Source of the DNA: Catenuloplanes atrovinosus
Lineage (GTDB): Bacteria > Actinomycetota > Actinomycetes > Mycobacteriales > Micromonosporaceae
Assembly (NCBI RefSeq): GCF_031458235.1
Contig: NZ_JAVDYB010000001.1
Coordinates: 5,194,001-5,258,000, forward strand
Direction: 5' to 3'
DNA: 64,000 nucleotides
A program made the translations under genes and the position numbers. Every line of letters starts with the position of its first letter. Position 1 is the first letter of the stretch. Shown here piece by piece: positions 38,969-43,353 of the stretch. The notes beneath the pieces were generated by a model, which saw only the letters and a program-made list of their open reading frames with translations, was not told the DNA's origin and ran no database searches.

Positions 38969-40837
38969 GTGTCCGACAGCAACGACATCATCGGCGAGAT
39001 CGACCGCTGGCTGCTCTCCCAGGGGCGGCACGAGAGGCTCTGGACGGTGCTGGGCGCGCACCCCACCGACGACGGCTGCCACTTCGCGGTGTGGGCCCCG
39101 AACGCGCGCGAGATCCGGGTGATAGGGGACTTCGCGGGCTGGGGCGCGGACGACGGCGTACCCATGCGGAATCTCGGCGACAGCGGCGTGTGGGCCGCGT
39201 TCGTGCCGGGCGCCACCGTGGGCCAGCACTACAAGTACAAGATCCACGGCGCGGACGGCTCGTGGATGGACCGGGCCGACCCGCTGGCCGTGGCGACGGA
39301 GACCCCTCCCCGTACCGCGTCGAAGATCTTCCGGTCCGAGCACAAATGGGACGACGGCGACTGGATGGCCGCGCGCGCGTCGCAGACCGAGCACCACCGG
39401 CAGGCGATGAGCGTCTACGAGGTGCACCTCGGCTCCTGGCGGCCCGGCCTCGGCTACCGCGAGCTGGCCGACCAGCTCACCGAGTACGTGGCCGAGCTGG
39501 GCTTCACACACGTGGAGCTGATGCCGGTGATGGAGCACCCGTTCGGCGGCTCGTGGGGCTACCAGGTCACCGGCTACTACGCGCCCACCTCCAGGTTCGG
39601 CAACCCGGACGACTTCCGCTACCTGGTCGACCGGCTGCACCAGGCCGGCATCGGCGTGCTGCTCGACTGGGTGCCCGCGCACTTCCCGAAGGACGAGTGG
39701 GCGCTGGCCCGCTTCGACGGCACCGCGCTCTACGAGCACCCGGACCCGCACCGCGGCGAGCACCCCGACTGGGGCAGCCTGATCTTCAACTACGGCCGCT
39801 GGGAGGTGCGCAACTTCCTGGTGGCGAACGCGCTCTACTGGCTGGAGGAGTTCCACGTCGACGGCCTGCGGGTGGACGCGGTCGCCTCGATGCTCTACCT
39901 CGACTACTCCCGCGAGCACGGCAAGTGGTCGCCGAACGAGCACGGCGGCAACGAGAACCTCGAGGCCATCGCGTTCCTCCGCGAGCTGAACGCGGTCGTC
40001 TACCGCGAGCACCCCGGCGCCGTCATGATCGCCGAGGAGTCCACCGCGTTCCCCGGCGTCTCCAAGCCCACCGACTGGGGCGGCCTCGGCTTCGGCCTGA
40101 AGTGGAACATGGGCTGGATGCACGACACGCTCGAGTACGCCGAGCGCGACCCGGTCTACCGCAAGCATCACCATGATCAGCTCACCTGGCCGTCCTGCTA
40201 CGCGTTCGACGAGCAGTTCGTGCTGCCGATCAGCCACGACGAGGTCGTGCACGGCAAGCGCTCGCTGATCGCCAAGCTCCCCGGCGACCGCTGGCAGCGC
40301 CTGGCCGGGCTGCGCGGATTCCTCGCCTACATGTGGTCGTTCCCCGGCAAGCAGCTCCTCTTCATGGGCTCCGAGCTGGCCGACGAGCACGAGTGGGCGG
40401 AGCACCGCGGCCTCGACTGGCACGTGCTCGGCGACCCGGCCGTCCAGGGCGTGCACGCCACGCTCCGCGACCTCAACCGCGTCTACCGAGAGTCACGCGC
40501 ACTCTGGTCGCAGGACACGCTGCCGCAGGGCTTCCGCTGGATCGCCCACGACGACTGGCAGAACAACGTGGTCTCCTACCTCCGCTGGGGCGATGACGGC
40601 TCGGTGCTCGCCTGCGTGGCCAACTTCAGCGGCGTCCCGCGCACCGGCTACCGCATCGGCCTGCCCCGGGCCGGCCGCTGGGACGAGGTGCTGAACACGG
40701 ACGCCACCCACTACGGCGGGTCCGGCGTCGGCAACTTCGGCGCGGTCACGGCCACCGACGCCGGCACGCACGGCCTCCCCCACTCCGCCGAGGTCGCGGT
40801 CGGCCCGTACGCCGCCGTCTGGTTCCGCCCGGCCTAG
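38969..40837 (+). CDS. glgB: 1,4-alpha-glucan branching enzyme
   Basis: A 622-residue GH13 branching enzyme that makes alpha-1,6 branches in glycogen. It has a CBM48 domain at about residues 25-120 ([17 protein letters not shown]), then the catalytic barrel: region [14 protein letters not shown], nucleophile Asp in [10 protein letters not shown], acid/base Glu in [11 protein letters not shown], and stabilising Asp in [12 protein letters not shown]-terminal all-beta domain ends at [11 protein letters not shown]. It is shorter than E. coli GlgB (728 residues) by one N-terminal domain. The start is a GTG; the spacing to the upstream terminator suggests its own promoter in the 40 bases between. 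Confidence 0.96.
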
Positions 40838-40849
40838 ATTTTCGCGACG

Positions 40850-40881
40850 CGCGGCCCTCACCGTTTTCGGTGGGGGCCGCG
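40850..40881 (+). terminator. Terminator after glgB
   Basis: 14-bp stem with a single G-T wobble (CGCGGCCCTCACCG / CGGTGGGGGCCGCG) and a TTTT loop, just after the glgB stop. Confidence 0.8.
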
Positions 40882-40929
40882 ACGCATCTAGGACAGGACC
40901 TGTCCGCCATTGTCCATAGGCTCTACGTC

Positions 40930-41418
40930 ATGACGACTCAAGAGCGCACGGACCTGGTGACGATGCTGGACCGCTCGCGGGGCTTCCTGCGGTTCACTGT
41001 GCAAAACCTGACCGACGAGCAGGCCGCGTCCCGCCCCGTGCCGAGCACCGAACTCTCGCTGGGCGGCCTGATCAAGCACGTGTCCGCGACGGAGCGCTCC
41101 TGGATCGCCTTCGCCACCGGCACCCCCGGCGCCCACGACAACGAGGAGGGCTGGGAGGACGGCTTCCGCATGGTCCCCGGCGAAACCCTCGACGGCCTGC
41201 TCGCCGACTACGCCAAGGTCGCCGCGCACACGGACGAGCTGATCGCCACCATCGACCTGGACGAGACCCACCCGCTCCCCGAGGCCCCCTGGTTCGAGCC
41301 CGGCGCCACGTGGACCAACCGCTACGTCCTGTTCCACCTCATCTCCGAGATCTCCCAGCACGCCGGCCACGCCGACATCCTCCGCGAGGCCATCGACGGC
41401 CAGAAGACCATGGGCTGA
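40930..41418 (+). CDS. DinB-family (DUF664) protein
   Basis: A 162-residue four-helix-bundle protein of the DinB/YfiT superfamily, whose members bind a metal through three His and include thiol transferases such as mycothiol-dependent enzymes. Candidate ligands are His in GLIKHVSATERSW and the two His in ISQHAGHADILRE. Here the start is the ATG at 40930; an open frame extends 60 bases upstream into the glgB terminator. Substrate unknown. Confidence 0.88.
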   Translation: MTTQERTDLVTMLDRSRGFLRFTVQNLTDEQAASRPVPSTELSLGGLIKHVSATERSWIAFATGTPGAHDNEEGWEDGFRMVPGETLDGLLADYAKVAAHTDELIATIDLDETHPLPEAPWFEPGATWTNRYVLFHLISEISQHAGHADILREAIDGQKTMG

Positions 41419-41432
41419 CCCTTCTCCGCCCA

Positions 41433-41519
41433 CTCCCGGCGGCCCCGGTGCCGCATGCTCCCGCGGGCACCGGTCGGCCGTGGCCGGCCTCCCTGTCCGA
41501 TCCGTGGCCGCAAGCCCAG
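41433..41519 (+). repeat. Left inverted repeat (87 bp) of the 41.4-42.7 kb island
   Basis: Positions 41451-41519 (69 bp) are the exact reverse complement of 42577-42645. A further 11 bp (41433-41443) match 42653-42663, with a 7-base unmatched block of equal length on both sides. The copy begins 15 bases after the DinB-like stop codon. No coding function seen. Confidence 0.85.
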
Positions 41520-41792
41520 GGGGCCGCTCTCCATCCGCCACCCGCCGGCGGTCCGGGCATGCCACTCCGTCCCGTTTCCCGCCGGGCGGCAATCTCCCCG
41601 CGGCTCGCCGGTGTGGCGCTCCGCCTCTTCGCTATCGGAGGTGGTTCCCCCGCGTTCGGCAGGTGTGCCCCTTCCCGCACGATCCGCCGAAGTGGATCTT
41701 CTCGGACTTCCGGGTTGCCGCTCCCACGATGCATCGCATGATCCACCGGGCAGTCTCCGGCTCCCGGCTCGCCGGCATGCCGCCACCAACGG

Positions 41793-41989
41793 CCCCCCGC
41801 ATGATCACAGCAACGCCGGCCTCGCGGCCCCCCGACGTGCGCGCCCCACGGTCCCCGCAGGAGCACCAAGCAACCCCCGCCTCGCGGCCCCCCGACGTGC
41901 GCGACCCACGCCTCCCGCAACAGCACCAAGCAACGCCCGCCTCGCGGCCCCCCGACGTGCGCGACCCACGATTCCGCATGATCGACTGA
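41793..41989. repeat. 60-bp tandem repeat, three copies plus a partial
   Basis: Units begin at 41820, 41880 and 41940, each with the same 25-base opening (CTCGCGGCCCCCCGACGTGC and on). The first two units are 60 bases, the third is cut at about 41989. A partial unit tail lies at 41793-41819. The tails share CAAGCAAC or CAGCAACG. Not coding in any frame that makes sense. Confidence 0.8.
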
Positions 41990-41993
41990 TTAG

Positions 41994-42042
41994 TGATACG
42001 TAGAGCACGCCGGCGGGTGCTCTTTACGTGCTCTACGTATCA
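41994..42042. repeat. 16-bp perfect inverted repeat (stem-loop)
   Basis: TGATACGTAGAGCACG at 41994-42009 and its exact reverse complement at 42027-42042, with a 17-base spacer. The arms are only 50% GC, unlike everything around them. It directly follows the 60-bp repeats. It could be a terminator, a protein-binding cruciform or the end of a former mobile element. Confidence 0.75.
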
Positions 42043-42220
42043 GTAGTCGTCGACCCTCACACGCAGCGCCCCCAATAAGGGGATATTTCGGGCATCGCCG
42101 ACAGCGAGAAGGGATGAGGAGCCCGGCCGGATGTGGTCGGCGAGCCGTTGCCCTCAGGCTAGCTAGCGAGTTCGGCGGCAAGGCCGGTGGACATACTCCC
42201 TGGAGACCGGCGGTGGCTGG

Positions 42221-42506
42221 GACACCCGCGCAGAAACCGGCGGCATGCCGGGACACCCGCACAGAAACCGGCGGCAAGCCGGGACACCCGCACAGAAACC
42301 GGCGGCGACGCCGAGACACCCGCACAGAAACCGGCGGCGACGCCGAGACACCCGCACAGAAACCGGCGGCGACGCCGAGACACCCGCACAGAAACCGGCG
42401 GCGACGCCGAGACACCCGCACAGAAACCGGCGGCGACGCCGAGACACCCGCACAGAAACCGGCGGCGACGCCGAGACACCCGCACAGAAACCGGCGGCGA
42501 CGCCGG
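42221..42506. repeat. Nine 31-32-bp tandem repeats, each with a hairpin
   Basis: Units start at 42221, 42252, 42283, 42315, 42347, 42379, 42411, 42443 and 42475. Units 3-9 are 32 bases and virtually identical; units 1 and 2 are 31 bases and vary in one segment. Each of units 3-9 contains CGGCG-GCGA-CGCCG, a 5-bp stem with a GNRA-type loop on the plus-strand RNA; units 1-2 keep a hairpin (CCGGC-loop-GCCGG) despite the changes. Partial copies flank the array. Since 32 is not a multiple of three, the frames rotate, which argues against coding. Confidence 0.85.
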
Positions 42507-42576
42507 GTGGACACGGGCGTTGAGGCCGGTGGAAGGCCGGGGATGGAGTCGCGCGGACAGGGCGGGGTGCGGCCCG

Positions 42577-42663
42577 CTGGGCTTGCGGCCACGGATCGGA
42601 CAGGGAGGCCGGCCACGGCCGACCGGTGCCCGCGGGAGCATGCGGGAAAGGAGCCGCCGGGAG
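42577..42663 (-). repeat. Right inverted repeat (87 bp) of the 41.4-42.7 kb island
   Basis: Reverse-complement copy of 41433-41519: 69 bp identical (42577-42645), then a 7-base unmatched block, then 11 bp identical (42653-42663). It ends 18 bases before the stop codon of the response regulator gene. Confidence 0.85.
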
Positions 42664-42681
42664 CGGGAAGATGAAAGACAG

Positions 42682-43353
42682 TCAGGTGAGCCAGGTGGGG
42701 CGGACCAGGGCGGATTCGTAGGCGTAGACGACGAGTTGGGCGCGGTCGCGGGCCGAGAGTTTGATCATGGCGCGGGAGACGTGGGTCTTGGCGGTGGCGG
42801 GGCTGACGTGGAGGCGTTCGGCGATCTCGTCGTTGTTGAGGCCCTCGCCGACCAGGGCGACCACCTCGCGTTCGCGGTCGGTGAGCGGGTCCGTGGTGGG
42901 GGGTGGCGGCGCGGGGGTGCTGCGGCCCCGGGTGGCGAACTCGGCGATCAGGCGGCGGGTGACGCCGGGGGACAGCAGGCCGTCGCCGGCGGCGACCGCG
43001 CGCACGCCGCGCAGCAGGTCGACCGGCTCGGTGTCCTTGACCAGGAAGCCGGAGGCGCCCACGCGGAGCGCCTCGAAGAGGTACTCGTCCAGCTCGAACG
43101 TGGTCAGGATGATGATCCGGGTGTCGGTCAGCGCGGGGTCGGCGACGATGCGGCGGGTCGCCTCCAGGCCGTCGACGCCGGGCATGCGGATGTCCATCAG
43201 CACCACGTCGGGGCGGGTGCGCGCGGCCAGCGTGGCGGCGGCCAGGCCGTCCGCGGCCTCGCCGACCACCTCGATGCCGGGCTCCGCGTCCAGCAGTGCG
43301 CGGAATCCGGCCCGGACCAGCGCCTGATCGTCCGCGAGCAGGACCTTGATCAC
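42682..43353 (-). CDS. NarL/FixJ-family response regulator
   Basis: A 223-residue regulator: receiver domain with DD pocket (VLLADDQALVRAG), phospho-acceptor in VVLMDIRMPG and Lys in FLVKDTEP; a Pro-rich linker; LuxR-type helix-turn-helix (GLNNDEIAERLHVSPATAKTH). It starts at a GTG at 43353 that overlaps the TGA of the kinase gene as GTGA. Its C-terminus lies beside the right inverted repeat of the repeat island. Confidence 0.93.
   Translation of the reverse strand: MIKVLLADDQALVRAGFRALLDAEPGIEVVGEAADGLAAATLAARTRPDVVLMDIRMPGVDGLEATRRIVADPALTDTRIIILTTFELDEYLFEALRVGASGFLVKDTEPVDLLRGVRAVAAGDGLLSPGVTRRLIAEFATRGRSTPAPPPPTTDPLTDREREVVALVGEGLNNDEIAERLHVSPATAKTHVSRAMIKLSARDRAQLVVYAYESALVRPTWLT

Follow-up and report, generated by a model that had tools for sequence, protein, structure and literature searches.

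Dispersed palindromic repeats at gene ends are already known, and the DNA uptake sequences of Neisseria double as transcription terminators, their inverted pairs being short and folding into one stem-loop. In high-GC actinomycetes, the means by which convergent genes are kept apart are, to our knowledge, poorly understood. According to excerpts of PMC3733652, REPs are 20- to 40-bp palindromes tagged with GTAG or CGTC at one end, and excerpts of PMC2817692 tie them to RAYTs. Clustered hairpins, grouped here with intrinsic terminators, are the subject of PMC8355165. What the family of repeats described below adds is an unusually strict placement relative to genes. A literature search that lay mostly outside subscription journals returned no paper containing the 12-letter core string of the element and no paper on such repeats in this lineage; in PMC12306157, whose text was looked at for selected terms, neither Micromonospora nor Catenuloplanes occurs.

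The window, a 64,000-nucleotide stretch of Catenuloplanes atrovinosus DNA, contains an island (41419-42681) between a converging DinB-like gene and response-regulator gene (Table 1). A preliminary description had reported a 69-bp exact inverted repeat with 11 further bp outside it, both copies lying directly behind the two genes. Recomputation bore this out: 41451-41519 is the exact reverse complement of 42577-42645 (69/69 bp, with the adjoining base mismatched on both sides), the outer 11-mer pair was found at 41433-41443/42653-42663, and the ungapped arms extend over 104 nt (41429-41532/42564-42667) with a complementarity of 92%. Across 300 first-order Markov shuffles of the island, no inverted repeat was longer than 20 bp (mean of the longest, 12.3), and the observed one is far above chance. 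The 60-bp and 31- to 32-bp tandem repeats of the earlier account were likewise recovered in three and nine copies, and its view of the island as gene-free held, since the best segment scored 8.9 by codon score and genes were called above 12. The reported 16-bp perfect palindrome was in part correct: 16-bp perfect arms exist, lying within 22-nt arms of 91% complementarity (41988-42009/42027-42048), but they form a hairpin stem with a 17-nt loop, and no 16-bp self-palindrome was found in the island. Membership in a known Rfam RNA family was rejected, as the four weak matches obtained in a scan of positions 40800-43000 stayed below their gathering scores and lay outside the island.

Table 1. Features of the island and its flanking genes, in window coordinates
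Feature	Position	Strand	Remark	Basis or status
DinB-like gene	40930..41418	+	3' end bears element copy 1; stop-to-element distance 10 bp	codon-score gene call, relatives
Gene-end element copy 1	41429..41516	+	sense to DinB-like gene	element-model match, 93.3 bits
Module A of copy 1	41429..41469	+	consensus CCCGCTTCCGGCG-spacer-CCGCATGCTCCCGCGGGCA	conserved
Module B1 hairpin of copy 1	41476..41489	+	GGCCG-TGGC-CGGCC	two of five pairs co-vary between B1 and B2; two others broken in B2
60-bp tandem repeat, 3 copies	41792..41970	+	absent from other places among the own-genome matches listed	
Central hairpin	41988..42048	.	22-nt arms; long hairpin of different sequence in relatives' orthologous gaps	
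31- to 32-bp tandem repeat, 9 copies	42221..42505	+	absent from other places among the own-genome matches listed	
Gene-end element copy 2	42580..42667	-	sense to response-regulator gene	element-model match, 97.3 bits
Module A of copy 2	42627..42667	-		conserved
Module B1 hairpin of copy 2	42607..42620	-		
Response-regulator gene	42682..43353	-	3' end bears element copy 2; stop-to-element distance 14 bp	

The arms of the island are two facing copies of a dispersed element of ~88 bp: each of the two convergent genes ends in one, and this gives rise to the long inverted repeat. The unit worth studying is the ~88-bp arm rather than the 1.23-kb island. When the full island was used as the query against its own chromosome (8,906,892 bases), with 40 of 416 first-look candidates scored, at least 95 matches were obtained, namely, the island itself once, the central hairpin four times, and otherwise the arms, which matched on both strands (long matches at 77 to 94% identity, short pieces at up to 100%). 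Such a search had been proposed earlier as a check for a mobile element; the arms proved to recur elsewhere in the chromosome, and among the matches listed the full island appeared only at its own place. With a model built from 39 aligned copies, at least 150 chromosomal matches were obtained, all 150 scored candidates being at an E value of 4.5e-6 or better. The 15-letter core occurred exactly at 131 sites (63 and 68 per strand), compared with 0 for the reversed control, and a 400-kb sample of the same genome held 25 element copies against 13 exact core sites, from which we estimate ~250 copies in this chromosome. No exact core site was present at 4.00-5.15 Mb of G000:C1, a 1.15-Mb stretch with a probability of ~6e-6 under random placement. 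With dnaA at 7.67 Mb, this stretch is neither the origin nor the opposite point of the circular map, and it is perhaps an acquired region.

The element was present in all five genomes of the genus that were examined, with at least 72 element-model matches each and at least 49 each with a model of its conserved part, module A. Under stricter filters, one weak element match each was detected in 4 of 32 other genomes of the family and none in 24 genomes of other families of the order. The module-A model matched 23 of 121 family genomes, comprising the 5 already mentioned, 6 from a single second genus (2 to at least 49 matches per genome), and 12 others (1 to 5 each); in two second-genus genomes, 96 of 150 and 54 of 150 scored candidates matched. 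Plasmids and phages gave no element match at an E value of 1e-5.

The element consists of a sequence-conserved module A of ~42 nt and, behind it, a second module that exists in several versions, most of them forming hairpins. Module A reads TTCCCGCTTCCGGCG(TGG)-spacer-TCCGCATGCTCCCGCGGGCA, and 13 of its 50 alignment columns were invariant and 16 nearly invariant, as computed on 71 of 93 copies from four species (22 of lower score, incomplete, or lying across a piece boundary were left out). The consensus of the 88-position element model, aligned from 39 of 44 own-genome copies after 5 partial or outlying ones were set aside, starts with (TT)CCCGCTTCCGG and carries no GTAG or CGTC tag at its ends. 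Among the 93 copies, the second module was B1 (a GGCCG hairpin) in 27, B2 in 30, B3 (a long hairpin) in 8, and of another kind in 28. For the B1 helix, 90% of cells were paired across the 39 own-genome copies and 16 of 195 cells were changed on both sides, a value reached in 0 of 500 shuffles; moreover, this register was the best of seven by both-side changes, cells paired, and covariation score. The count of pairs changed on both sides was only two, however, a number that shuffles also reach and that one slid register exceeds with three; the covariation traces to one alternative form, B2 (8 copies), in which two other pairs are broken. Copies in the second genus keep the core GCATGCTCCCGCGGGCACCG between different hairpins, often behind genes, with 90% of cells paired in the 5' helix and 76% and 80% in the 3' helices; covariation there was within reach of shuffles (58/500) and is at best weak. 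Module A is conserved more in sequence than in pairing, and the support for a putative RNA structure of the element is thin.

To describe the placement of the element, four syntenic 400-kb stretches were searched, yielding 93 module-A copies above 14 bits (best reversed-control match, 10.4 bits), with genes taken from our own uncurated codon-score calls. The copies lay in convergent gaps in 75 cases and in tandem gaps in 18; none was divergent or inside a called gene. A median of 38 bp separated the element from the stop codon of the gene in sense to it. Of the 41 copies in convergent gaps of 300 bp or longer, 40 were nearer to the gene in sense to them (p 4e-11), at a median distance of 39 bp versus 604 bp, and the same was true of 65 of all 75 convergent copies, while the 18 tandem copies comprised 12 in sense and 6 antisense to both neighbors. 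Gap length does not account for the convergent preference: once gaps were matched by length, requiring 60 bp or more apart from the element, a copy was present in 56 of the 129 convergent gaps, in 14 of the 385 tandem ones, and in 0 of the 203 divergent ones (Fisher 7e-26). With the limit raised to 300 bp, the counts were 24 of 49 convergent versus 5 of 86 tandem gaps. The four regions contained 119 convergent gaps of 80 bp or longer, of which 61 held a copy and 58 did not. The 62 occupied convergent gaps contained a single copy (51 gaps), a facing pair (10, one with an extra copy), or three copies in a row (1), and never an outward pair. A whole-genome sample of 44 copies, picked for their likeness to the arm and including 7 from the 400-kb region, gave 34 convergent and 10 tandem positions (6 sense, 4 antisense), with none divergent or inside genes. 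At 30 loci of the second genus, where context was less clean because the gene caller had been trained on the first genus, 16 copies were convergent and in sense, and 9 were tandem, of which 2 lay in sense and 7 antisense; 2 further copies were divergent and 1 was inside a called gene, with 2 left unassigned.

Conservation of position was assessed with reciprocal-best-hit genes, the species pairs not being independent of each other. The genome of the window is denoted G0, and G2, G3, and G4 are relatives of the same genus. The share of copy-bearing genes whose ortholog also bore a copy ranged from 7 of 19 (G0 and G2) to 14 of 18 (G0 to G3 and G2 to G3), compared with 4 to 12 of 229 to 270 genes without a copy (1.5 to 4.8%). 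Orthologous copies were hardly more alike (mean, 80%; n = 68) than nonorthologous copies across species (78%; n = 1140) or copies within species (79%; n = 376), suggesting that the fixed positions within the element are preserved while its free ones are saturated. Old copies held to a consensus would fit these values, and constant gene conversion could give the same picture. Of 13 convergent pairs common to all four species, 7 had no copy in any, 3 had one in all, and 3 were mixed; absences coincided often, but not invariably, with short gaps, and some sites retain remnants. Copies that are decayed or incomplete, as well as differences between species, were also seen, and the inspected sites, whose flanks diverge fast, showed no clean insertion with a target duplication and no clean empty site. 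A comparison of five of the six species pairs over the 400 kb revealed three local inversions, two of them with both ends in convergent gaps that bear elements in one or another species. These two lie at 94569-96343 and 272805-281993 (G000:C1, within 5.2-5.6 Mb), spanning 1.8 and 9.2 kb, and at both ends of each the convergent gaps carry elements in at least one species; no gene-end element was called near the third.

In the relatives, the DinB-like and response-regulator genes stay convergent and the interiors of the gap differ, with other tandem repeats present. G3 and G4 carry two facing element copies there, 1.5 and 0.8 kb apart; C. japonicus, the source of the nearest named protein relative (77%), shows a single clear copy (45 bits), which follows the DinB-like gene, and one weak match (20 bits), and in G2 no copy was called at this gap. 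A long central hairpin was found in all five gaps (G0 and G3 by hairpin scan; G2, G4, and C. japonicus by eye), its sequence differing and its pairing kept. In the own genome, two further copies of this hairpin each adjoin gene-end elements, and it is a member of a long-hairpin family (ATTAGTGATACGTRGAGCAC...; window 41988-42048) that adjoins such elements. By eye, a motif like GCGCCCGAAATTTCG (window 42082-42093 and relatives) flanks the central hairpin on both sides, inverted, in several species. The G3 gap additionally holds a small element with inverted ends TGCCACTTAGCCTAAGTTGATC, apparently inside the gene-end element copies and bordered by an apparent short duplication GGGCACCG (both by eye). 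In G3, two different convergent gaps, both holding a facing element pair, share an identical 83-bp hairpin, and a ~50-bp hairpin family, GATCNAGGCGTC...GACGCCTNGATC, lies behind genes in convergent and tandem gaps and is also present in G4; none of six hairpins called in the own-genome 400 kb was of this type.

The 69-bp perfect match of the window pair is exceptional among element pairs. Across the 946 pairs of the 44-copy sample, the longest exact stretches were 69 bp (the window pair) and 71 bp (one other facing pair). Unlinked copies within species averaged 77% identity (n = 1020), and 0.3% of these unlinked pairs were as alike as the window pair, or 1.9% in the sample chosen for arm likeness. 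For the window pair, the earlier suggestion that recent copying or conversion underlies so perfect a match is plausible, and local conversion or recent local copying at this site is likely. Facing pairs in general were not more alike than unlinked ones (p = 0.38 and 0.49), and general gene conversion between facing arms is unsupported.

The reading we favor, at slightly less than even odds (roughly 0.46), is that the element is maintained by selection at gene ends, where it may block or buffer read-through between converging genes; this function we infer from sequence and placement. The element would stop, pause, or absorb read-through as RNA polymerase, or the transcript, leaves the gene, and neither converging gene would then be transcribed antisense by its neighbor. 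The long central hairpin could act as a second, bidirectional barrier, and the tandem repeats of the island may be fast-evolving filler. Convergent preference, sense orientation in long gaps, proximity to the stop codon, kept position, and the combination of core and hairpins would all five be explained by blocking or buffering read-through, and among the readings offered in the preliminary description, a bidirectional termination or insulation zone fits best, the arms belonging to a family concentrated at convergent gene ends. Against it count the antisense tandem copies, the thin support for RNA structure, and the roughly half of sizeable convergent gaps that lack an element, and the core-free 1.15-Mb stretch is odd if the element meets a general need. 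A crude home-made score for a hairpin plus U-tract showed no enrichment of this terminator signature at element-bearing ends (convergent ends, 18/71 with and 28/195 without the element; tandem ends, 4/11 and 98/373; shuffles, 95/650). In several gaps, an ordinary-looking hairpin was seen by eye between stop codon and element, which is thus not the sole candidate terminator. We advance only tentatively the stronger proposal of a dedicated convergent-gene insulator, whose ~20-nt core, common to two genera while the surrounding hairpins are replaced, would be kept at hundreds of gene ends against collision and antisense read-through and would have its own putative recognition factor. That the element is instead an old mobile palindromic family, REP-like or MITE-like, surviving where it is harmless and doing no job for the host, appears rather unlikely to us. 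High copy number, intergenic and hairpin-rich character, decayed and partial copies, species differences, the presence of several other hairpin families in such gaps, and the stretch without an exact core site all speak for it, and known REPs favor 3' flanks, mostly in unidirectional and convergent gene gaps (excerpts of PMC3733652). A passive repeat would explain why divergent gaps are avoided; it leaves unexplained why long tandem gaps, which should be equally safe close behind a gene, were occupied far less often than long convergent ones (5/86 versus 24/49). Few copies are near-identical, given the 77% mean and the 0.3% of pairs noted above, positions tend to persist between species, no Y1 transposase was detected in the five genomes, and the phage and plasmid searches gave no match, all of which weigh against this explanation.

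A distinctly unlikely alternative, drawn by analogy with BIME-2, is that of a topological site, in which the element would act as double-stranded DNA and draw DNA gyrase or another nucleoid protein to positively supercoiled DNA. Positive supercoils meet in convergent gaps, absence from divergent gaps fits, and in module A sequence is better conserved than pairing; in E. coli, moreover, gyrase cleaves BIME-2 and is located downstream of transcribed units (excerpts of PMC6379681). A gyrase-type site would account well for the convergent preference and poorly for orientation; a supercoil sink needs neither a tie to the stop codon nor the sense orientation seen in long convergent gaps (40/41). In addition, the gyrase signal at BIME-2 increased under a transcription block, according to the same excerpts, so it is not a simple read-out of supercoiling even in E. 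coli. We rejected the idea that the whole 1.23-kb island forms a single non-autonomous transposable element bounded by terminal inverted repeats of ~100 bp, an idea that is highly improbable despite its inverted ends and gene-free interior: apart from the hairpin, the interior has no match elsewhere among the own-genome matches listed, the arms in G3 and G4 enclose other interiors, and 51 of the 62 occupied convergent gaps hold one copy. The preliminary description, which had offered this possibility, had itself noted no target-site duplication, and we likewise saw none, nor an empty site. An assembly artefact is scarcely credible; long perfect repeats can be misassembled, but the arms differ outside the 69 bp, the flanking genes are unique, and the same facing arrangement occurs in two related species.

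In several species, roughly every second sizeable convergent gap is marked by this family, with a preferred orientation and near the stop codon, which offers hundreds of natural replicates and natural absences for testing termination, supercoiling, and read-through.

Compared with known systems, the family resembles REP/BIME repeats of E. coli, Pseudomonas, and Stenotrophomonas (excerpts of PMC3733652 and PMC2817692) in its more than 100 copies per genome, its intergenic position behind genes, its hairpin-forming capacity, its rarity in divergent gaps, and the facing arrangement that copies can adopt. It differs from them in its length of ~88 bp with a long sequence-conserved module, in its untagged ends, in being far commoner in convergent than in tandem gaps, and in its orientation, which within long convergent gaps is sense to the closest gene. 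RAYT (Y1_Tnp, PF01797) was detected in none of the five genomes of the genus, the control being positive in 5 of 14 known genomes, and a RAYT-dependent REP/BIME membership was rejected for want of both this protein and a GTAG/CGTC tag, despite the more than 100 intergenic copies behind genes. Like intrinsic terminators, the element lies behind stop codons and has GC-rich hairpins; unlike them, it is a repeat family of a single lineage, concentrated at convergent pairs, sometimes following an ordinary hairpin, and without U-tract enrichment. With the BIME-2 gyrase sites (excerpts of PMC6379681) it shares an occurrence where positive supercoiling is expected, which makes them a candidate for working alike; its sequence differs, no RAYT accompanies it, and a gyrase role here is a candidate by analogy. 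Like the Neisseria DNA uptake sequences, finally, it is a lineage-specific repeat reused at gene ends, but its copies, ~88 bp long, occur alone or widely separated and may each fold into hairpins of their own.
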